In this document: in pieces, positions 1,994-59,742 of the stretch | How positions within the stretch are numbered: the first letter of the stretch is position 1 | Layout: each line of letters opens with the position of its first letter | Assembly (NCBI RefSeq): GCF_004114375.1 | Contig: NZ_CP034692.1 | Location: 1,240,001-1,304,000, forward strand | Length of the DNA: 64,000 bases | Direction: 5' to 3' | Origin: Halorubrum sp. BOL3-1 | GTDB lineage: Archaea; Halobacteriota; Halobacteria; Halobacteriales; Haloferacaceae | The notes under the pieces: model-generated | What the model was told of the DNA's origin: nothing | The model's database searches: none | What the model saw: only the letters and a program-made list of their open reading frames with translations | Position numbers and translations under genes: made by a program

Positions 1994-2079
1994 CCGCCAG
2001 ATCGGTTGCGGTCGGCGCGTTCCGGTGAGCGCCCGTCAGGGCGCGAACCCGAGCGCGAGGTTCCCGCGAGCAACGCGAG

Positions 2080-2180
2080 CGGGAGTTCGGAGATCGGAGA
2101 TTTCCGGTGGAGTCCGGCGGCCGAAGCGGAGCAGAGGCCGCCGGACGAGGCTGTGGAGGCGTGAGGCCGCGGTGCGGTAC
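2080..2180 (+). repeat. Truncated sixth copy of the dispersed hairpin repeat
   Basis: This piece holds the second hairpin of the dispersed repeat as a perfect 11-bp stem (2112-2122 with 2136-2146). The core block GACGAGGCTGTGGAGGCGTG follows at 2144-2163. The large third hairpin and the tail are missing. The sequence before the stem (ATCGGAGATT) also matches the copy at 21871-22170. The rest of the gap 1994-2317 shows no convincing gene. Confidence 0.6.
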
Positions 2181-2317
2181 GCGCTTCCGGAGGTCGTGCT
2201 CAGCGATTCGGATCTCTCTCAGTATTTCCGGGCGAAGCGAGGAAATCGCCGGCCGGGACTCCCGCGAGCGATGGCGAGGCGTGAGCGAAGCGAACGCCTC
2301 GATTGCGAGCTGGAGGT

Positions 2318-2396
2318 CGGCCGGCGCATCCTCCCGCACGGACTCACTCGTCGCTGTCGCTCCTCGTTCGTGATGTGCGGGAGGATGCGCCGGCCG
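2318..2396. repeat. 22-bp perfect inverted repeat beside the tRNA-Gly-like site
   Basis: The arms at 2318-2339 and 2375-2396 are perfect reverse complements (GTGCGGGAGGATGCGC in the right arm) separated by 35 bp. The right arm runs into the tRNA-Gly 3'-end-like sequence. The structure could be a terminator, a recombination scar or an inverted duplication made during integration. Confidence 0.7.
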
Positions 2397-12743: not shown

Positions 12744-13625
12744 TCACAGGCTGACGCTGTCGGGGACGAGCCGCACCGAGTCGCCGGGCCGGAGGTCGAA
12801 CGCGCCGTCGCCGCGCCCGTCGTTGACGTCGCACTCCACGTAGCCGTGGCTCCCGACGGTGACGAGGCGCTCGCCGGGGTCGACGGCGCCGAACGTCTCC
12901 GCGACCGGCGTGAGGTCGCCGTCGACGCGGATCCAGTCGCGACCGCGGATCAGTTCTCCCGGGACGTTCGTTATCACGTTCCCGAACCGGTCGATCGCGA
13001 GCGCCTCGCCGTCGACGGCGACGACGGCACCGTCGTCGCCCGCCTCGTCGACATCCGCGTCGTCGCCTCCTTTCTCGTCGCCGCCCGCCTCGGCCCGCTC
13101 GACCGACGGCTCCGGGAAGCGGACGTCGACCGGGTCGCTCGCGGGGGCGAGGTCGTCCATCGCCGCGAGGGTCTCGGAAACGTCCTCGGGGGTCGCCGCC
13201 GCGGGACCGTCGTCGAGTGCCGTCCGGACGCGGGCCGCGGTCGGGGCGAACACGTCGCGGCCGTGGAACGTCTCGCTCGCCGGTTCGTCGACCGCGACGG
13301 TCCAGGCCTCGACGTCCGACTCGCCCGCCGCCAGCGCCCGAGCCGGCGGCATCGCGAGGCCGTTGTCGGGCGCGACGATCACGTGCGCGCCAGCGCGGAC
13401 GACGAGCGCGTCGCGACCGGTGCCGACGCCGGGGTCGACGACGGCGCAGTGGACCGCCGGCGGGAACTCCGTGAGGACGAACCGGAGCCAGAAGGCCGCC
13501 GCGCGCGGGTCTCCGCGCGGTAGGTCGTGGGCGACGTCGATCAGTTCGGCGTCCGTGTGCCGGCGGATCACTCCCTTCATCGCGGCGGGGTACGGCGAGC
13601 CGAAGTCCGAGGTGAGCGTGATCAT
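12744..13625 (-). CDS. SAM hydrolase / SAM-dependent halide-hydroxide adenosyltransferase (DUF62)
   Basis: A 293-residue protein beginning MITLTSDFGSPYPAAMKGVI, the hallmark of the DUF62/duf-62 family, with VVDPGVGTGRDALVV and the C-terminal barrel block IDRFGNVITNVP. Archaeal members hydrolyse S-adenosylmethionine to adenosine and methionine with a hydroxide nucleophile. An acidic, alanine-rich insertion (about residues 172-198) interrupts the usual linker. The family is usually 255-265 residues, so this one is longer because of that insert. Confidence 0.9.
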   Translation of the reverse strand: MITLTSDFGSPYPAAMKGVIRRHTDAELIDVAHDLPRGDPRAAAFWLRFVLTEFPPAVHCAVVDPGVGTGRDALVVRAGAHVIVAPDNGLAMPPARALAAGESDVEAWTVAVDEPASETFHGRDVFAPTAARVRTALDDGPAAATPEDVSETLAAMDDLAPASDPVDVRFPEPSVERAEAGGDEKGGDDADVDEAGDDGAVVAVDGEALAIDRFGNVITNVPGELIRGRDWIRVDGDLTPVAETFGAVDPGERLVTVGSHGYVECDVNDGRGDGAFDLRPGDSVRLVPDSVSL

Positions 13626-13701: not shown

Positions 13702-13973
13702 GCGGTGGCGCGCGCCTCCGAGCGGTCGCCTCTGGCGACCGCGAGGGGCGCGTGCGAGGGAGTCGCGAGCGGACGGGCGACCGAAGGGGGTCCGGGGCGA
13801 GCGACGAGGCTGGGGAGGCGTGAGGCTGCGGTGCTGTGCGGTGCGGGGCGGGGGCTCGAAGGGGCAGCCGCGAGGCGGGCGCAGGCGATGTAAGCACCGC
13901 AGGAGCGAGTGAAACGAGCGACAAGGAGCGCAGCGAGCGTGCGCCCGCCTCGCGGCTGGGGCTTCGGTGGTGG
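13702..13973 (+). repeat. Dispersed hairpin repeat, copy 1
   Basis: Non-coding repeat of 272 bp. It begins GCGGTGGCGCGCGCC, passes through the core GACGAGGCTGGGGAGGCGTG (13804-13823) and ends CTGGGGCTTCGGTGGT. A perfect 19-bp stem (13865-13883 with 13940-13958, arm CAGCCGCGAGGCGGGCGCA) closes a 56-nt loop. Five copies of this family lie in the window. It sits between the SAM hydrolase start and the NMN adenylyltransferase stop. A TTTATAAA-like block follows at about 13990. Confidence 0.85.
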
Positions 13974-14015: not shown

Positions 14016-14546
14016 CTACGCGTCGGAGGGCACCTCACCGTTCGTGTCGGTCTCGGCGACGCGGCGGATGCGCTCGACGCCGTCGACCTCGCGGATCACG
14101 TCGACGACGGCGTCCGGGACGAGGTCCTCCCAGTCGCGCCCGCGGATCATCCGCTCGCGGAGTTCGGTCCCCTCCAGCACGTCGCGCCGGAACATCGGGG
14201 ACTGGCGCACCTCGACGCCGGCCTCCTCGAACAGCCGGACCACGAGCGGGTTGTTCGAGTACGCGACGTCGAACCGCGGGGTCATGCTCTGGACGTGGCT
14301 CACCCACACCGAGTTCCGGTCGAGGTCCTCGATGGGGACGACGTAGGTGGTGACCGCCAACTCCTCGACCGCCTTCGTCGCCATCATCACGCGCTCGCCG
14401 GCAGTGAAGGGGTTCCGCGTGGTGTGGGAGTCGCCGGCCGAACCGATTCCCAAGACCAGCTCGTCTACCTCCGCCGCGATCTCTTCCACCATGTGCTGGT
14501 GACCGTCGTGGAACGGCTGGTACCGGCCGATGTAGAACCCCCGCAT
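14016..14546 (-). CDS. Nicotinamide-nucleotide adenylyltransferase (NadM type)
   Basis: A 176-residue enzyme making NAD+ from NMN and ATP. The nucleotidyltransferase motif GRYQPFHDGHQHMV is at the N-terminus. A second conserved block, HTTRNPFTAGERVMM, follows near residue 42, with SNNPLVVRLFEEAGVEV further on. Length and motifs fit the archaeal NadM family. A TATA-like TTATAAA lies about 25 bp upstream of the ATG. The gene is divergent from LonB. Confidence 0.93.
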   Translation of the reverse strand: MRGFYIGRYQPFHDGHQHMVEEIAAEVDELVLGIGSAGDSHTTRNPFTAGERVMMATKAVEELAVTTYVVPIEDLDRNSVWVSHVQSMTPRFDVAYSNNPLVVRLFEEAGVEVRQSPMFRRDVLEGTELRERMIRGRDWEDLVPDAVVDVIREVDGVERIRRVAETDTNGEVPSDA

Positions 14547-21870: not shown

Positions 21871-22170
21871 ACCACCGCCGAAGCCCCAGTCGCGAGGCGG
21901 GCAGACGCTCGTTGCGCTCCTCGTCGCTCACTCCGTTCACTCCTGCGGTGCTTACTTCGCCTCTGCCCGCCTCGCGACTGCCCCTTCGAGTCCCGCCCGA
22001 CCGCAACCGAACCGCACCTCACACCTCCCCAGCCTCGTCAGTCGCCTCCGCTATGCTCCGGCGACTGACTCCAGCGAGAATCTCCGATTCTCTGGCAGCC
22101 GGCGCGTAGTGCCGGCGACCTCGCGCGTGCGACTCCCGCCCTTCGGGCGCTCGTCGGCACGCGCCACCGC
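21871..22170 (-). repeat. Dispersed hairpin repeat, copy 2
   Basis: This is the 300-bp repeat in reverse orientation. The perfect 19-bp stem (21887-21905 with 21962-21980, arm CAGTCGCGAGGCGGGCAGA) differs from copy 1 at three positions, each compensated in the other arm. The second hairpin is a perfect 10-bp stem (22037-22046 with 22060-22069). It lies between endonuclease III and tRNA-Leu, just outside the integrated element. Confidence 0.85.
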
Positions 22171-28484: not shown

Positions 28485-30014
28485 ATGATGGTCGCAGGGA
28501 ACAGTACGCCTATGCCTGTTTCGCTGGATGAGCTGGAATCTCATCTATTCAAATGCGCTGACATAATCCGCGATGCTGTTGACCCGACTGATTATAAAGA
28601 ATACATCCTCCCGCTCGTCTACTACAAGTCTATTTCCGACGAGTTCCAGAAGCAGTACGCTGACAACGTTGCGGAGTACGGCGAGGACTTCGCGCGCCGA
28701 AACGACCTCTACAGTATTCCCGTTGTTCCCGAGGGCTATTTGTGGGAAGACGTGCGTGCTGTCTCGGACAACATCGACCAAGCCCTAAACGAAGCGTTCG
28801 ATGCGCTCACCGAGGAAAACCCACAGCTCACAGGCGTCTTCCGCGCTGACTACATCGACGCCGACGCACTCGACGACGACCGCCTCGGGAAGCTCGTCGA
28901 ACATCTCTCGACCCACGACCTCGACCGTGACAGCATCCCCCCGGACATGCTCGGCGAGGCGTACATGGACCTTGTCCGACACTTCGCCGAGGAGGAGGGG
29001 AAGTCCGGCGGCCAGTTCTTCACGCCCCCACACATCGTGAATCTCTGCGTCCGACTCGTGGACGAGTTCGAGGACGGGATGACATTCCACGACCCCACGG
29101 TCGGCTCCGGCGGGATGCTCATCGAGGCCGCGCGGTACTACCGTGAGGAGCAGGGCGGCGACCCGACGAAACTCGCGTTCACCGGACAAGAAATCAACCC
29201 GGACATTGCGGCCATCGCCAAGATGAATCTCTCTATTCACGGACTGAACGGAGAGATTGAACGCGAAGACTCGCTCTCGAATCCAGCGTTCACCGACGAA
29301 GACAATCAAGAACTCACTCGCTTTAACCGGGTTCTCGCGAACTTCCCGTTCTCAGCGGATTGGGCGAAAGACGACCTCCAAGACGACCCCTACGGACGTT
29401 TTGACTGGCACGAGAAACTCCCACGTGCCGACCGCGGGGACTACGCCTTCATCATGTCTATGGCGAAGCAGTTGAAGCGTCCTGACCGCGACGGCGACGG
29501 CGGGAAGGCGGCTATCGTCATCCCCCACGGAGTGTTGTTCCGCAAGCACGAATCGCGGTATCGGAAGCACATGCTGGAAGAAGATATAGTGGAAGCCATC
29601 GTCGGGCTTCCCGAGAATCTATTCCAGAACAACGCGATTCCCTCTGCTGTTCTCGTGTTGAATAGGGACAAGCCAGAAGAGCGTAAGGGCGAGGTACAGT
29701 TCATTCACGCCGCCACCGAGGATTTCTACGAGGACCTATCGAATCAGAACGAACTAACGGAGGACGGACTCGACCACATCATCGAAAACTTCCGTGGATG
29801 GACAGCCGAGGAGCGTGTGAGTCGGCCGGTGTCGCTGAACGAGATTCGGGAGAACGACTACAATCTCAATATCGCCCTTTATGTTGATACGACCGAGCCG
29901 GAAGAGGATATTGATGTGGAGGAAGAACTAGCGAAGTTGCGAGAATTACAGAGCGAGCGTGATGAGATTGAAGCGACGATGAGCGAGCATATGGAGGCGT
30001 TGAATTATGAGTGA
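28485..30014 (+). CDS. hsdM: Type I restriction-modification methyltransferase subunit HsdM
   Basis: About 509 residues. An N-terminal helical HsdM_N domain (LDELESHLFKCADIIRDAVD) is followed by an N6-adenine methylase with the SAM motif DPTVGSGGMLIEAAR and motif IV NFPFS (variant of NPPF). It methylates adenine at the target defined by HsdS. Starts at 28485/28488 or 28512 are all possible; a GTG at 28398 would add a non-conserved leader. Its end overlaps hsdS by 8 nt. Confidence 0.93.
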   Translation: MMVAGNSTPMPVSLDELESHLFKCADIIRDAVDPTDYKEYILPLVYYKSISDEFQKQYADNVAEYGEDFARRNDLYSIPVVPEGYLWEDVRAVSDNIDQALNEAFDALTEENPQLTGVFRADYIDADALDDDRLGKLVEHLSTHDLDRDSIPPDMLGEAYMDLVRHFAEEEGKSGGQFFTPPHIVNLCVRLVDEFEDGMTFHDPTVGSGGMLIEAARYYREEQGGDPTKLAFTGQEINPDIAAIAKMNLSIHGLNGEIEREDSLSNPAFTDEDNQELTRFNRVLANFPFSADWAKDDLQDDPYGRFDWHEKLPRADRGDYAFIMSMAKQLKRPDRDGDGGKAAIVIPHGVLFRKHESRYRKHMLEEDIVEAIVGLPENLFQNNAIPSAVLVLNRDKPEERKGEVQFIHAATEDFYEDLSNQNELTEDGLDHIIENFRGWTAEERVSRPVSLNEIRENDYNLNIALYVDTTEPEEDIDVEEELAKLRELQSERDEIEATMSEHMEALNYE

Positions 30015-31395
30015 GGACACAACTTTGAACGAATTTGTCGAGAATGAAAAACACGAATCATCAAATCTAGAACTTGGCCCTATTGAGGTAGAGATACCAG
30101 ATGAATGGGACTCAAGGCAACTATCTACCGTATTTGACCTAATAACTGGAAATAGTTACACGGGTGATTATCTCTCTGATGAGGATAATAGTGGCCGGAT
30201 ATTCCTAACACTAAAATCGGTCAACAAGGGCGGTGGGTTCAACTGGGATAGCCTGAAATACTACACGGGCGAGGTGAATGAGAGAGAAGTAGTAGAGCCG
30301 GGCGAATTACTCATAGCTAACACCGACGTTACTCAAGATGGAGATATTGTAGGCTATTCCATTAGAGTCCCTGATTTCGATTCAGAAAAGGAAATCGCGG
30401 CGTCTATGGATTTATCCATCTTACGACCAACATTAGACAATATTAATCTTCCATATATCGAATACCTGCTTCAAACAGATTTTATCCATTCCCGGATGCG
30501 GGCATTTAGCGCAGGGTCAACCGTCTTACACTTGAACACAGACCTTGTAAAGTCGCTCTCACTTCCTCTTCCACCACTCTCGGAACAGCGCAAAATTGCC
30601 ACTGTCCTCTATACTGTTAACCAAGCAATTGAGAAGACTGAGAAAATTAGAGAACAAATAGAACGAGTAAGGGCCGGAACAGCACAAGACCTGTTTCGAA
30701 ATGGAATCTCTCAGGGGGAAACAAAGGAAACATGGCTCGGTGAAATTCCCGAAGATTGGGATGTAGTCCCATTTTCAAAAATAGTTGACTCTAATCGCAA
30801 CGGCCTATATAAATCAAAGGACGCGTACGGTGAGGGCTGTCCGATTGCCAAGATGGGAAATGCTCTTGAGAAGCGTACGCTCGATATGTCTTCTGCTGAC
30901 AGGCTAGAATTGACTGATGAAGAGAAACAGAAGTACGGACTGAATGAAGGCGACCTAATTTTTGCTCGCCGAGCACAGGAGGTATCTGCGGCTGGGGATT
31001 GTTGCTACGTTCCACAACTTGACGAATTAACGGTGTTTGAATCATCACTAATCCGAGTTCGTTTGGCAGAGGGCGCAAACCCTCGATTCTACACACAGTA
31101 CTTTGATAGCCCCGTTGGCTCTCGGTCCATAGAGCGTATCGTAACAGAAACCAGTATTTCTGGAATAGCGACCAGCGACTTGCTTGACCTGAAGGTTGCC
31201 GTCCCCAGTCTCGCTGAGCAAGAGGAAATCGCTTCAATCATGTGGAAATTCGATGAGCAAGAGAAGTCGTTACAGAAAGAAAGAGAATGGTATGAACGCC
31301 TCAAACGTGGCTTAATACAAGACCTCCTCTCGGGAACAGTCCGAATGACCGACACTAACATAGAGGTTCCCGAAGAAGTCACCCAACATGGTTAG
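30007..31395 (+). CDS. hsdS: Type I restriction-modification specificity subunit HsdS
   Basis: 462 residues with two target-recognition domains (about 30-190 and 240-410). Each is followed by a conserved helical spacer beginning LPPLSEQRKIATVLYTVNQA and VPSLAEQEEIASIMWKFDEQ. Two full-length domains imply a bipartite DNA target. The sequence is more AT-rich than hsdM and hsdR, as expected for a diversifying subunit that recombines between strains. It overlaps both neighbours by 8 nt. Confidence 0.93.
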   Translation: MSEDTTLNEFVENEKHESSNLELGPIEVEIPDEWDSRQLSTVFDLITGNSYTGDYLSDEDNSGRIFLTLKSVNKGGGFNWDSLKYYTGEVNEREVVEPGELLIANTDVTQDGDIVGYSIRVPDFDSEKEIAASMDLSILRPTLDNINLPYIEYLLQTDFIHSRMRAFSAGSTVLHLNTDLVKSLSLPLPPLSEQRKIATVLYTVNQAIEKTEKIREQIERVRAGTAQDLFRNGISQGETKETWLGEIPEDWDVVPFSKIVDSNRNGLYKSKDAYGEGCPIAKMGNALEKRTLDMSSADRLELTDEEKQKYGLNEGDLIFARRAQEVSAAGDCCYVPQLDELTVFESSLIRVRLAEGANPRFYTQYFDSPVGSRSIERIVTETSISGIATSDLLDLKVAVPSLAEQEEIASIMWKFDEQEKSLQKEREWYERLKRGLIQDLLSGTVRMTDTNIEVPEEVTQHG

Positions 31396-34348
31396 CATCC
31401 CGTCCGAGGGCGGCGTCGAGCGGTCGCTCCTCTCGTGGCTCGACGGCGTCGGGTGGGAGACACACGGATTAGACGGCGGGCGAGGTGCTAGCGTTCTCGA
31501 TGACGCCTACGAACGCGACAGTCACGAGGTCGCCTACTGGAACCTTCTCGCGGAGCAGGTCGTCGCATTGAACGAGGAAGTCACCGAGGACAACGTGGAT
31601 AAGTTCATATCCTCGCTTCGCCGCGACCTCGACACAGAACATCTGATGGACGGCAATCGTGAGTTCCACCAGTTGCTCGCGAAGGGAAAGAAGTTCAGCG
31701 TTCAACGCGGGAAGGGGGCGACAGACACCGTTATTGTAGACCTCATTGACCACGACAATCCAGAAAACAACCGTTTCCACGCGGTCAATCAGTTCTCTGT
31801 CTCCCGCGAGACGACCATTCGACCGGACGTAAGCCTGTTCGTCAACGGGATTCCGCTCGTGACGATGGAGCTGAAAAGTCTCGCGCAGGATAACGACTGG
31901 CACGACGCCGTTAGCGACCTCCAAGACTACGAGGACGACGCTCCAAGGCTCTTCATTCCCGGTCTGTTCAACGTCGCCGCCGACACGATGGAACTCCGAT
32001 ACGGAGCTATGGGTGCGCCCAAGGAGTTCTACGAACCGTGGAACGACGCCCCAGAAGAGTTCGAGGACGACAATGCGATGAAGCAGGGGGTCAAAGCGCT
32101 GTGTAATCCCGGGACGCTTCTCGACCTCGTCAAGCACTTCGTTTTCTACGAGCGCCGAGCCGGAGGAGACGCGAAAATCATCCCGCGCTATTCGCAGTAC
32201 TACGCGGTCAATCGTATCCTCGACAGAGTCCACGAGGGCGTCCACAAACGCGGCCTCATCTGGCACACTCAAGGGTCGGGGAAGTCGTTCACGATGCTGT
32301 ACGCTGCCGAGAACCTACTCTCACGGCCTACAGTTGCCCGTAACCCGCAAGTCTTCGTCATCGTAGATACGGACAAGCTGAACTCGCAAATGCGCAACCA
32401 GCTTGCGAACCTCTCGCTGGAGCGATGGACGGAGGCCGAGAGCATCGACCATCTCCAGCGTCTCATCGAGGAGGGGAGTAGCCAGCTCGTCCTCACAACT
32501 ATTCAGAAGTTCGAGGATGTCGACCCCGACGTACAGGGAAACGACGAGGTTATTCTGATGAGCGACGAGGCGCACCGCTTCATGGAAGCCGACCTCGGGA
32601 GCCGAATCAAGGCTGCGTTCACGAACTACTCCCATTTCGGATTCACCGGCACTCCCGTTCGAGAAGGAGAACGACCAGAGGACCGAAACACGTTTGACGA
32701 GTTCTCTCCCGAGGGCGAAAAGTATCTTCACCGCTACTCGGTCAAGCAGGGCATTGACGACGGCCTGATTCTCCCCGTCTACTTCACGCTTCGTCACGAG
32801 ATGGAGTGGGACATTGACGAGGCCGGACTCGACGAAGAGTTCGAGCAGGAGTTCCGGGGGATGACGACCGACGAAAAACGGGAGTTCATCAAGGAAAACG
32901 TCACCAGCCGGACTATGGCTGAACTCGAACCACGGGTAGACCGTGCGGTCGCTGAAATCGATACCCACTACAACGAACATCTTTTGCCGAACGGCTGGAA
33001 GGGGATGGTCGTCACCCCGAGCCGGCGGTCGGCGGCGATGTACGGCGAGCGGCTACGGGAACAGATGGGTGAAGAGGCCGTGGAAGTCCTCTACACGTCT
33101 ACGAAAGACGACTCCGACCTCATCAAGCAGTTTCACACGGATTCGGAGGAACGCAATAGCATCGTCGGGGACTTCAAAGAAGAGGAGAATCCGCAGCTCC
33201 TCGTCGTCCACAACATGCTCCTCACAGGCTTCGACGCGCCGATACTCAAGACGATATATCTCGACCGGAATCTCAAAAATCACAATCTCCTCCAAGCCAT
33301 CGCTCGGACTAACCGGCCTGCCGCCGGGAAGGAGAACGGCGAGATTGTGGACTTTCAGGGCGTGTTCGAGAACATCGACGAGGCGCTTGACTACGACGAC
33401 GAGACGAAAGCCTATGCCGCGCGCGACAAGGACGAACTCTACGAGGAGCTGGTAGAGCAAGTTGAGCGGGCAATGGACATCTTCGATGGCATAGATAAGG
33501 ATGACACGCAGGAGGCGACCTACGAAGCTATCGAGCGCGTTAGCACGCATCCGGAACGTCGTGAGTTCAAACAGAACTTCCGGCGACTACAGAACCTCTA
33601 CGAAGCCGTCGCCCCTGACGGACGGCTTGTGAGTGAGGGTATCGAACGTGACTACAAATGGTTGAGCAGAATCCACGTCGCGTTCAAGCGCACGACCTCG
33701 GGCAATGACGACCCCGAGAAGGAGATGCGCGAGAAGACGCGAGAGATAATCAACAAGCACGTCGATATTCCCGAAATCAAGCGTGACTTTCCCACCTATA
33801 AGCTCGGGAAGGAATACTTAGAAGACGTTGAGGAACTCGATAACCCCAGCGTGAAGGCGGCGCAGGTAGCTCACGCTACCCGCGAACACCTCCATCCACG
33901 AGAAAACCAGAACCCACGGTACAAACGATTGAGCGAGCGCGTGACAGACATCGTTGAGCGGTGGCAGGGTGAAGAGATGAGCGACCCCAAGGCAGTTGAA
34001 GCTCTGAAGTCTGTCGAAGAAGAGGTGTTATCAGTCAAAAACAAATCCGAGAAGGGGACGAGAGAGGCCGCAGAGTTTGCTATCTATACGCACCTGACCG
34101 AGGAGACACCCGACGCCATAGAGTCCGATGAGCAGGCAGAGCAGGTCGCAGAAGAGATTGTCTCACAGTTCCGTGAGCGGGTTGACCGAAGTTACGCTGG
34201 CTGGAAAACGAACCAGCAGACAATCGCAGAAATCGAGCGTATCCTGTTGGATGTACTGGTGGTAGAATACGACCTCGGGCATCTCATCAAGGATAGTGAC
34301 GGGTTCGTGGACGCGACCCGAGACTATCTAATTCAGAATCATGGCTAA
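31388..34348 (+). CDS. hsdR: Type I restriction endonuclease subunit HsdR
   Basis: 986 residues. The N-terminal PD-(D/E)xK nuclease has Asp147, Glu161 and Lys163 (RPDVSLF ... MELKS). The SF2 translocase follows with Walker A HTQGSGKS near residue 292-299, DEAH near 392, FTGTPV, and motif VI IARTNRP. A C-terminal helical domain docks to HsdM/HsdS. It translocates and cuts DNA unmethylated at the HsdS target. The catalytic residues appear intact, so the system looks active. Confidence 0.95.
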   Translation: MVSIPSEGGVERSLLSWLDGVGWETHGLDGGRGASVLDDAYERDSHEVAYWNLLAEQVVALNEEVTEDNVDKFISSLRRDLDTEHLMDGNREFHQLLAKGKKFSVQRGKGATDTVIVDLIDHDNPENNRFHAVNQFSVSRETTIRPDVSLFVNGIPLVTMELKSLAQDNDWHDAVSDLQDYEDDAPRLFIPGLFNVAADTMELRYGAMGAPKEFYEPWNDAPEEFEDDNAMKQGVKALCNPGTLLDLVKHFVFYERRAGGDAKIIPRYSQYYAVNRILDRVHEGVHKRGLIWHTQGSGKSFTMLYAAENLLSRPTVARNPQVFVIVDTDKLNSQMRNQLANLSLERWTEAESIDHLQRLIEEGSSQLVLTTIQKFEDVDPDVQGNDEVILMSDEAHRFMEADLGSRIKAAFTNYSHFGFTGTPVREGERPEDRNTFDEFSPEGEKYLHRYSVKQGIDDGLILPVYFTLRHEMEWDIDEAGLDEEFEQEFRGMTTDEKREFIKENVTSRTMAELEPRVDRAVAEIDTHYNEHLLPNGWKGMVVTPSRRSAAMYGERLREQMGEEAVEVLYTSTKDDSDLIKQFHTDSEERNSIVGDFKEEENPQLLVVHNMLLTGFDAPILKTIYLDRNLKNHNLLQAIARTNRPAAGKENGEIVDFQGVFENIDEALDYDDETKAYAARDKDELYEELVEQVERAMDIFDGIDKDDTQEATYEAIERVSTHPERREFKQNFRRLQNLYEAVAPDGRLVSEGIERDYKWLSRIHVAFKRTTSGNDDPEKEMREKTREIINKHVDIPEIKRDFPTYKLGKEYLEDVEELDNPSVKAAQVAHATREHLHPRENQNPRYKRLSERVTDIVERWQGEEMSDPKAVEALKSVEEEVLSVKNKSEKGTREAAEFAIYTHLTEETPDAIESDEQAEQVAEEIVSQFRERVDRSYAGWKTNQQTIAEIERILLDVLVVEYDLGHLIKDSDGFVDATRDYLIQNHG

Positions 34349-35063
34349 GACACAGCGGCAGGAAGTGGACTTGGTGGGCGAGACTGTTGAGTATGACGTA
34401 CGTTGGAGTTCAGACGCGACTAAGCCGCGTATTGACGTGGACATCCGCGGTGTGACTGTCGTGGTCCCCAACGCCGCCGACGTTCAACCGACCGAGGTCC
34501 TCCGCGGGAACGCCGCGTGGGTCGTAGAGAAACAACAGAACTTCGAGCGGTACCGAGAGCAGGTTCCCGACCGCACGTTTGAGGCCGGCGAGACGTTTCC
34601 GCTACTCGGAACGGAACGTAAACTCGTCATTGAGCCAGCTCGCAGTCATACTATCACCGACGACGAGATTCGACTCAGGGAAAGCACAGTCGAGCAGTCC
34701 ACGGTCAAACAGGTACTCGAAAACGTCTATCGGAGAGAGGCCCGTAACTACTTCTCCAAGCGTGCGAGCCACTACGCGGAGCAGATGGGCGTCGAGTACG
34801 ACCAGATACAGGTCCGAAACCAGAGAACTCGGTGGGGTTCCTGCTCCACGACAGGGACTATTAGTCTAAACTGGCGATTGATGTTAGCACCGCCTGAAAT
34901 CGTTGACTACGTCATCGTCCACGAACTTGCGCATCTTCGAGAAGCAGACCACGGCGAGGAGTTCTGGGGGTTCGTCGCTGAACACGACTCAGAACATGAA
35001 GCTCACGCGAGGTGGCTGGAGGAAAATAGTATCCAGTTGATTTTTTCGACGGACGACATATAG
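34341..35063 (+). CDS. YgjP-like metallopeptidase (DUF45) of the R-M operon
   Basis: 240 residues with the zinc metallopeptidase motif HELAH (194-198) and a downstream HGEEFW that supplies the third ligand, preceded by RTRWGSCSTTGTISLNWRL, the signature of the YgjP/SprT-like fold. It overlaps hsdR by 8 nt, the same overlap seen at the two upstream junctions, so it is part of the restriction operon. YgjP genes are recurrent partners of type I systems. It may cleave or control HsdR, which is inferred, not shown. Confidence 0.9.
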   Translation: MAKTQRQEVDLVGETVEYDVRWSSDATKPRIDVDIRGVTVVVPNAADVQPTEVLRGNAAWVVEKQQNFERYREQVPDRTFEAGETFPLLGTERKLVIEPARSHTITDDEIRLRESTVEQSTVKQVLENVYRREARNYFSKRASHYAEQMGVEYDQIQVRNQRTRWGSCSTTGTISLNWRLMLAPPEIVDYVIVHELAHLREADHGEEFWGFVAEHDSEHEAHARWLEENSIQLIFSTDDI

Positions 35064-45552: not shown

Positions 45553-45795
45553 GCGGTGGCGCGTGCCTGCGAGGCCGCACCGCGGCCGAGTAGCACGCGC
45601 GAGGGAGTCGGCGGCGACCGACGGGAGCCGCCGACGAGGCTGGGGAGGCGTGAGGTGCGGTTGCGGGGCGGGGCGGGACTCGAAGGGGCAGTCGGGAGGC
45701 GGGCGCAGGCGACGTAAGCACCGCAGGAACGAGTGAAGCGAGTGACGAGGAGCGCAGCGAGCGTGCGCCCGCCTCCCGACTGGGGCTTCGGCGGT
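45553..45795 (+). repeat. Dispersed hairpin repeat, copy 4
   Basis: 243-bp forward copy. The perfect 19-bp stem (45689-45707 with 45764-45782; arm CAGTCGGGAGGCGGGCGCA) has a C-to-G change at position 7 relative to copies 1, 2 and 5, matched by G-to-C in the opposite arm. The second hairpin is a 9-bp stem (45607-45615 with 45627-45635). An isolated extra tail GCGACTGGGGCTTCGGCGGT lies at 45827-45846. It sits between the DUF371 gene and a small membrane protein gene. Confidence 0.85.
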
Positions 45796-45998
45796 CGTGT
45801 TCTCAGCAGTAACCGCGTCGTAGCGAGCGACTGGGGCTTCGGCGGTCTCAGTCCACACGGCGGTAGCTCCGTTTCGGATCCCCGATAAGTCGGCTCCGTT
45901 GAGGTCCCGCTATCCAAACGGTGTTAGCTAAAACGTCCGCTCAATGAGTGCCACACATTCACCATTAGACATATGTGTTCACTCGTCGAAAAGAGGGT

Positions 45999-59362: not shown

Positions 59363-59631
59363 GCGGTGGCGCGCGCCTGCGAGCGGCCGCCCTCGGCGGC
59401 CGCGAGTCAGCGCGTGCGAGGGAGGCGGCGGTCCGGCGCGGCTCCGCCCGCGCAGGGCCGTCCGCCGAGGCTGGGGAGGTGCGAGGCGTTGTGCGGAGCG
59501 GTGCGGGGCGGGGCTCGAAGGGGCAGCCGCGAGGCGGGCGGAGGCGACGCAAGCACTGAAGGAGCGAGCGACGCGAGCGACTGAAGCGCGCAGCGAGCGT
59601 CCGCCCGCCTCGCGGCTGGGGCTTCGGTGGT
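59363..59631 (+). repeat. Dispersed hairpin repeat, copy 5
   Basis: Forward copy of 269 bp. The perfect 19-bp stem (59524-59542 with 59600-59618; arm CAGCCGCGAGGCGGGCGGA) differs from copy 1 only at position 18, compensated in the other arm. It closes a 57-nt loop. An isolated extra tail GCGGCTGGGGCTTCGGTGGT lies at 59675-59694. It separates divergent genes, and the next gene's TATA box (TTTATAAA, about 59713-59720) follows just after the extra tail. Confidence 0.85.
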
Positions 59632-59742
59632 GTCCGTGTCGCTCACCGATTTATAAGTGGCATGTCACGGCCGAGCGGCTGGGGCTTCGGTGGTGTCCAC
59701 CACCGATCACCGTTTATAAACCCGCAAACCGAACCCACGCGT

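Follow-up and report, generated by a model that had tools for sequence, protein, structure and literature searches.

The 64,000-nucleotide stretch of the Halorubrum sp. BOL3-1 chromosome analysed here (hereafter the window; contig NZ_CP034692.1, positions 1,240,001 to 1,304,000) contains five copies of an element of about 255 nt and a degenerate sixth. The first copy lies between two genes on the minus strand, encoding an NMNAT-type cytidylyltransferase (14016-14546) and a SAM hydroxide adenosyltransferase (12744-13625); open reading frames are simple script calls. The features of the window are as follows.

13702..13973, plus strand: copy 1, full element HP1 - HP2 - G-rich core - HP3
13708..13755, plus strand: HP1 of copy 1 in the predicted fold, with a GCGCGYGC outer stem, a CGAG/CGAG tandem-GA motif, an inner stem and a 3-nt loop
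13762..13806, plus strand: HP2 of copy 1, a hypervariable hairpin of the predicted fold
13803..13825, plus strand: G-rich conserved core GACGAGGCTGGGGAGGYGTGAGG of copy 1
13857..13967, plus strand: HP3 of copy 1 (119.3 bits with model R1; covariation), in the order CGAAG, GGG-GGG internal loop, 19-bp stem, 2-bp helices split by GA/GA, small apical loop
13974..14015, plus strand: tail of copy 1, TTTATAA and tail-like letters, reaching the NMNAT stop codon
21871..22170, minus strand: copy 2 (HP3 at 21878-21988), with an extra double-hairpin module near HP2
42549..42795, minus strand: copy 3 (HP3 at 42553-42666), second stem type, 87.9 bits
45553..45795, plus strand: copy 4 (HP3 at 45681-45791), starting 26 nt past the stop codon of a DUF371 gene
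45831..45846, plus strand: tail repeat box CTGGGGCTTCGGCGGT of copy 4, 51 nt after the first box
59363..59631, plus strand: copy 5 (HP3 at 59516-59627)
59679..59694, plus strand: tail repeat box CTGGGGCTTCGGTGGT of copy 5, 63 nt after the first box
about 2013..2334, plus strand: sixth, degenerate copy, with its 5' part at 2013-2180 and a weak HP3 match at 2239-2334

All five copies reported in the initial annotation are present, with correct coordinates and strands, and the four pairs of arms that it quoted do form perfect 19-bp stems in which arm positions 4, 7, 17 and 18 vary and each change is matched in the opposite arm. Its fifth copy (copy 3 above) has the other stem type, yet matches the hairpin model. 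What it had missed was the sixth copy, the length of HP3 (about 110 nt rather than 19 bp), the GGG/GGG loop, the outer CRAAG/CTTYG clamp and the copy number across the genome. The window also carries, at 28485-35060, a Type I restriction-modification operon (hsdM-hsdS-hsdR) and a gene for a YgjP-like metallopeptidase. This operon sits in a stretch of lower GC3, at about 22-40 kb of the window, which is probably an acquired island.

A profile built from 27 copies recovered 103 full-length copies of 223-296 nt (mean 255) at loci of many species. The element begins with GCGGTGGCGCG and ends with GGGGCTTYGGYGGT, which are not inverted copies of each other, and comprises from 5' to 3' the hairpins HP1 and HP2, the core GAGGCTGGGGAGGYGTGAGG, a G-rich spacer, HP3 (about 110 nt) and CTTYGGYGGT. 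HP1 begins about 6 nt from the 5' end, and HP3 stops within about 10 nt of the end of the 3' box. Across copies, the first five inner pairs of HP1 are 92-96% Watson-Crick with several pair types, its CGAG/CGAG motif is present in 90 of 97 copies and its loop has 3 nt in 66 of 97. HP2 is different in every one of 151 copies, with 94% of its stem pairs being Watson-Crick. HP3 is built from the outside inwards of CRAAG, the GGG-GGG internal loop, the 19-bp stem, a G.G mismatch, helices of 2 bp interspersed with GA/GA or 3x2 loops, and a small loop. The conserved motifs (core, GGG/GGG and apical AAGCAC..GCGCA) are asymmetric and define one strand.

Downstream of the element, one to four additional boxes resembling CTGGGGCTTYGGYGGT are present in 62% of copies (55/88), as compared with a single upstream case among the same 88. 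The spacings of these tail boxes are multiples of 3 nt (51, 54, 57, 63, 66 or 69) in 81 of 85 units, for instance at 45780-45846 and 59616-59694 of the window, although the letters between them diverge strongly and no reading frame is kept. A coding tail was rejected despite this periodicity, as no frame is open in all classes and no codon-phase pattern was found. Small double-hairpin modules of two families (TCGCCGGC..GCCGGCTGCCAGAG..CTCGCTG and GTTCACGAGAG..CTCTCGTGAGCC.ATCAGAA..TTCTGATGA) interrupt the hairpins of some copies; they were located in L101, L166, L195, L221 and copy 2 of the window, and one lies near the Halobellus copy L099. The 5' domain (HP1-HP2-core) precedes quite different 3' sequence, such as AGTAGCTAGCT motifs, in L197 and in L180-L183, the latter from another family, so that the 5' and 3' domains appear to have been shuffled. 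In one Halorubrum copy (L196), the G-rich core is expanded in tandem to about four copies of GGGGCTGGGGAGGCGTGAGGTGC.

The claim that the hairpin is selected for its fold is strongly supported by a covariance model and a wide alignment. Alignment A1 comprises 86 distinct HP3 copies; standard pairs fill 98.7% of its 3213 pair cells, and both partners have changed in 28 of the 39 pairs. Double-changed cells number 366, compared with 91.5 after shuffling and 10-26 when the structure is slid, and none of 500 shuffles was as high. As A1 was filtered on the 19-bp stem, its inner helices provide the clean test: they pair at 97.7-100%, with double changes in most, and the inner pair 40-91 is CG in 73 copies, GC in 12 and UA in one, with zero mismatches. 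A tree-based null (78 copies, 40 nulls), computed with our own R-scape-like code on copies that are not independent, gave seven pairs at E<=0.05, every one of them within the fold. In alignment A2, which was fitted to the model and leans towards it, 31 of 38 pairs are double-changed and covariation reaches 0.673 versus 0.175 when shuffled. Covariation beyond phylogeny and base composition, as expected of a structured ncRNA, was thus found with our code, in A1 and in A2. Moreover, 115 distinct arm pairs include 31 perfect 19-bp stems of differing sequence, some with insertions matched on both sides. The outer R-Y pair spans the GGG/GGG loop, with its partners separated by about 100 nt; A-T is found in 75 copies, G-C in 59 and a mismatch in six (n=140), and both states are found within single genomes.

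The main alternative raised by the initial annotation was that palindrome arms are homogenised. Copies could then be relics, with template switching or gene conversion maintaining their arms as complements. Processes of this kind are known, hairpins are replaced as a whole at shared sites, and the decayed copy G000_1226 has its GGG converted to CCC. However, template switching would repair mismatches to complements, whereas at the eight positions of fixed mismatches inside HP3 (GGG/GGG, tandem GA/GA and G.G) only 3 of 681 cells are pairable. Mismatches therefore persist in 678 of 681 cells while adjacent pairs freely swap letters, and the GGG/GGG loop is retained in 135 of 140 Halorubrum-type copies and in 27 of 27 copies from other families. 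Arm homogenisation is rejected on these grounds, and we regard the view that the copies have no function as extremely unlikely. It is near certain that the HP3 fold, including its mismatches, is under selection, its shape being preserved while its letters change freely.

The genome of the window contains at least 40 scored copies and 70 exact cores, a copy number that rests on searches. Within the class, 54 of 292 genomes and 11 of 77 genera have the exact core, among them 35 of 35 Halorubrum genomes, each with 8-160 copies. A reversed control pattern gave 0 matches in every genome listed, and copy 1 has a fold z-score of -4.0 as RNA and -4.6 as DNA, which together exclude chance. Haloparvum, Halobellus, Halosimplex and Halorussus are among the genera with named loci. 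With the HP3 model, matches at E<=1e-4 were obtained in 135 of 194 genomes, representing 51 of 65 genera, although the weak matches may be generic long palindromes, the antisense of true copies scoring up to 47 bits. All 27 strong matches inspected in families f1, f4, f6, f7 and f10 keep GRAAG-GGG/GGG-CTTYC, and nearly all of them have the tip AAGSAC..GCGCARCGAG, while across families the stems (13-24 bp) are unrelated in most copies. The HP3-type hairpin, alone or with the 5' domain, is thereby present in at least five haloarchaeal families, and in a phylum-wide sample the 23 matching genomes all belong to the same order. Most cross-family matches are solo HP3 (20/24), with the core upstream in the other four. 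HP3 is thus an ancient module of haloarchaea, and the element found in Halorubrum is a composite. Several HP3 copies in other genera form inverted 5'-to-5' pairs, which are not usual in Halorubrum. One 3.3-Mb genome of family f10 (G159) has 54 strong HP3 matches, many in such pairs with a full element on one side.

The element had been proposed to be an undescribed system of this window. A partial literature search, with the motif as text, recovered no prior description; the restriction to the window was too narrow, as the hairpin occurs across haloarchaea. In agreement with the initial annotation, which knew of no Rfam family of this shape, Rfam 15 matched only two tRNAs in the window at gathering score, and a single chance match (E 3.1) below threshold with E up to 5.

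The 5' boundary of the element is sharp, with information rising from 0.35 bit at position -2 to 1.6 bits at -1, and its occupancy is variable. The region between the SAM hydroxide adenosyltransferase and NMNAT genes is occupied in four of 20 genomes, the measured empty regions being 48-125 bp, and a profile search revealed full or partial copies at seven of 30 DUF371 loci. The DUF371 locus also yielded a copy with an internal deletion (L252), an isolated tail unit (L274) and a pair in tandem (L248). Sites are AT-rich and TATA-associated and occur in every gene context. Orientation relative to flanking genes is neutral (++25, --22, +-27, -+18), and no clustering of orientations along the chromosome was visible by eye in the genome match list. 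We rejected a role as cis-regulatory RNA or terminator, given this lack of orientation bias. In about a third of copies (e.g. L060, L073, L081 and L122, but not copy 1), TTTATAA-like boxes are found upstream whatever the gene context, with their start peaking at -16 from the 5' end; such boxes recur 20-40 nt past the 3' box, also between convergent genes. The upstream box was rejected as a promoter of the element, because at this distance the start site would fall inside HP1.

Five copies of the genome of the window (G000) in the sampled region could be mapped to G017, and all five sites are occupied there, with about 85-92% flank identity. Copies at shared sites thus persist across species at about 10% flank divergence, several with intact hairpins, which suggests a benefit to the host; among them are copies with compensated changes in the arms, copies whose hairpin has been replaced as a whole and copies that have lost a hairpin. 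No clear target-site duplication was found, the copies being too old for a firm reading: the similarity of a copy's own flanks exceeds that of cross-copy pairs only slightly (12.5% versus 4.8% expected), and long duplications gave a weak signal. Near-identical young copies are lacking, the best paralogue having about 82-84% identity to copy 1. No full copy was detected on PLSDB plasmids or in phage records, and the exact core is also missing from viral contigs.

One may ask whether the element is a double-stranded or cruciform DNA site that serves the chromosome, for nucleoid proteins, topology, recombination or transcription insulation, in a role similar to that of bacterial BIME/REP. In the genome of the window all matches found sit on the chromosome contig. 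The presence of copies in both orientations and all gene contexts, the absence of full plasmid copies, the retention at shared sites and the symmetry of HP2 mismatches between strands would all be in line with such a role. It is nevertheless difficult to reconcile with conserved motifs that define one strand, with occupancy that differs greatly between species at both loci examined, and with copy numbers ranging from 8 to 160 within one genus. We consider it improbable.

A structured RNA is a more probable alternative: the plus strand of each copy would be transcribed and the folded RNA would act in trans or in cis, as an undescribed ncRNA class spread through the genome. Strong covariation, fixed internal loops and tandem GA pairs are all familiar from ncRNAs, and in some of the copies at shared sites the fold has stayed intact across species. 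In addition, where an HP3 wobble is shared by at least three copies, it is almost always G.T on the plus strand (13 copies at columns 12-119, 34 at 36-96, five at 52-85, four at 31-100 and three at 56-78, with A.C absent there), and pair 3 of the outer HP1 stem has 20 G.T and no A.C. This strand asymmetry is suggestive only as a sign of RNA; the excess is confined mainly to a few positions, and HP2 is symmetric (16 G.T versus 13 A.C). Random orientation relative to genes would require most copies to have their own promoter, whereas a TATA-like box is present in only about a third of them and at an unsuitable distance, and there is the lack of an Rfam match. We consider an RNA rather unlikely; which strand is read is in any case less certain than the maintenance of the fold itself.

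We found no autonomous version of the element, with both ends around a gene, the split matches being at most a few hundred nucleotides apart. Nor was a partner enzyme detected: the one Y1 transposase gene and the 15 TnpB genes of the genome are without element-like ends. The single Y1_Tnp gene is part of an IS605, in a locus without matches to the element profile, and only one of the 15 tnpB loci has a neighbouring full element, downstream of tnpB and outside the IS end.

Several known systems share features with this element. REP, BIME and REPIN hairpins are short and conserved in their letters, carry a flanking tetranucleotide and are linked to RAYT transposases. They resemble the element in being intergenic, chromosomal, oriented hairpins that occur singly or in inverted pairs in tens to hundreds of copies, but the haloarchaeal hairpin has about 110 nt and free stem letters, and no RAYT partner was seen, the only Y1 transposase of the genome belonging to an unrelated IS605. 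Fungal mitochondrial double-hairpin elements are small, compact and GC-rich and are inserted within other hairpins, much like the modules that interrupt some of our copies, but they are devoid of the conserved clamp and tip. HEARO/IscB and TnpB omega-RNAs are also structured, a few hundred nucleotides long and dispersed in copies tied to mobile DNA; in contrast, our element has no Rfam match to HEARO or any other family and no systematic association with tnpB. Unlike MITEs, it has no terminal inverted repeats.

A haloarchaeal parallel is provided by the palindrome-associated transposable elements (PATEs) of Haloquadratum walsbyi, whose palindromes match IS605 ends and often each other (PMC3119063). 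These are likewise non-coding, with many divergent copies and core deletions; they show no obvious target duplication (PMC3119063), and the present element shares with them the absence of terminal inverted repeats and the palindromes near both ends. It could accordingly be a PATE, another IS200/IS605 derivative or a remnant of a TnpB omega-RNA. Yet known PATE palindromes resemble IS605 ends (PMC3119063), whereas HP1 and HP3 differ from each other and match no IS605 end that we found, either at the 15 TnpB loci or at the single TnpA locus; the one element beside a tnpB gene lies outside the IS. Sequence-free covarying stems with fixed mismatches are not described in that work (PMC3119063), and the hairpin of our element spans many haloarchaeal genera. 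An origin of this kind seems very unlikely.

Taken together, the sharp end, variable occupancy, orientation neutrality and lack of a usable promoter lead us to favour a non-autonomous, dispersed mobile hairpin element of haloarchaea, the plus strand of which would be recognised as a folded single strand; we give this reading, whose mechanism is inferred, a probability of about 0.42. A trans-acting enzyme that reads single strands, either a transposase or a nuclease/recombinase, would recognise the HP3 clamp GRAAG-GGG/GGG-CTTYC and the apical GA motifs, excise or copy the element and integrate it at AT-rich intergenic positions, in many cases some 16 nt downstream of a TTTATAA box. As only shape, clamp and tip would be read, the letters of the stem could vary freely. 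In the intervals between insertion events, HP3 or other parts might be lost through palindrome deletion, and hairpins would be replaced, probably via conversion from other copies. GNA triloops of the GCGAAGC type form unusually stable DNA mini-hairpins. Such tips are frequent in the element, and together with the missing promoter at a usable distance and the indifference to gene orientation they make us slightly prefer single-stranded DNA over RNA. Against mobility we count the absence of full copies from PLSDB plasmids and of any copy from phage records, which is unusual for an active mobile element, the lack of a clear target-site duplication and the concentration of the wobble excess at few positions. 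An RNA and, with less weight, a chromosomal site keep some probability in view of the missing enzyme, the lack of young or plasmid copies and the persistence of copies at shared sites.

More broadly, we tentatively propose, at somewhat less than even odds, that the clamp GRAAG-GGG/GGG-CTTYC and the tip AAGSACYGSA..GCGCARCGAG, carried on a stem of free sequence, define an undescribed class of structured nucleic acids in haloarchaea. It would act as a functional unit, rather than a relic repeat, at every chromosomal locus that it occupies (up to 100 or more), either as an RNA class or as a single-stranded DNA recombination or transposition system with a putative partner enzyme. Among prokaryotes, the element offers a clear example of a dispersed repeat that has a fixed shape and fixed specific mismatches but stem letters that vary from copy to copy, and it separates selection for a fold from palindrome homogenisation, two processes that are usually hard to tell apart. 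If the element is mobile, haloarchaea, among them species amenable to genetics, should harbour a single-strand-reading enzyme that awaits discovery; if it is an RNA, it would represent a new haloarchaeal class absent from Rfam. Either way, the covariance model can be used to annotate many intergenic regions that are now blank.
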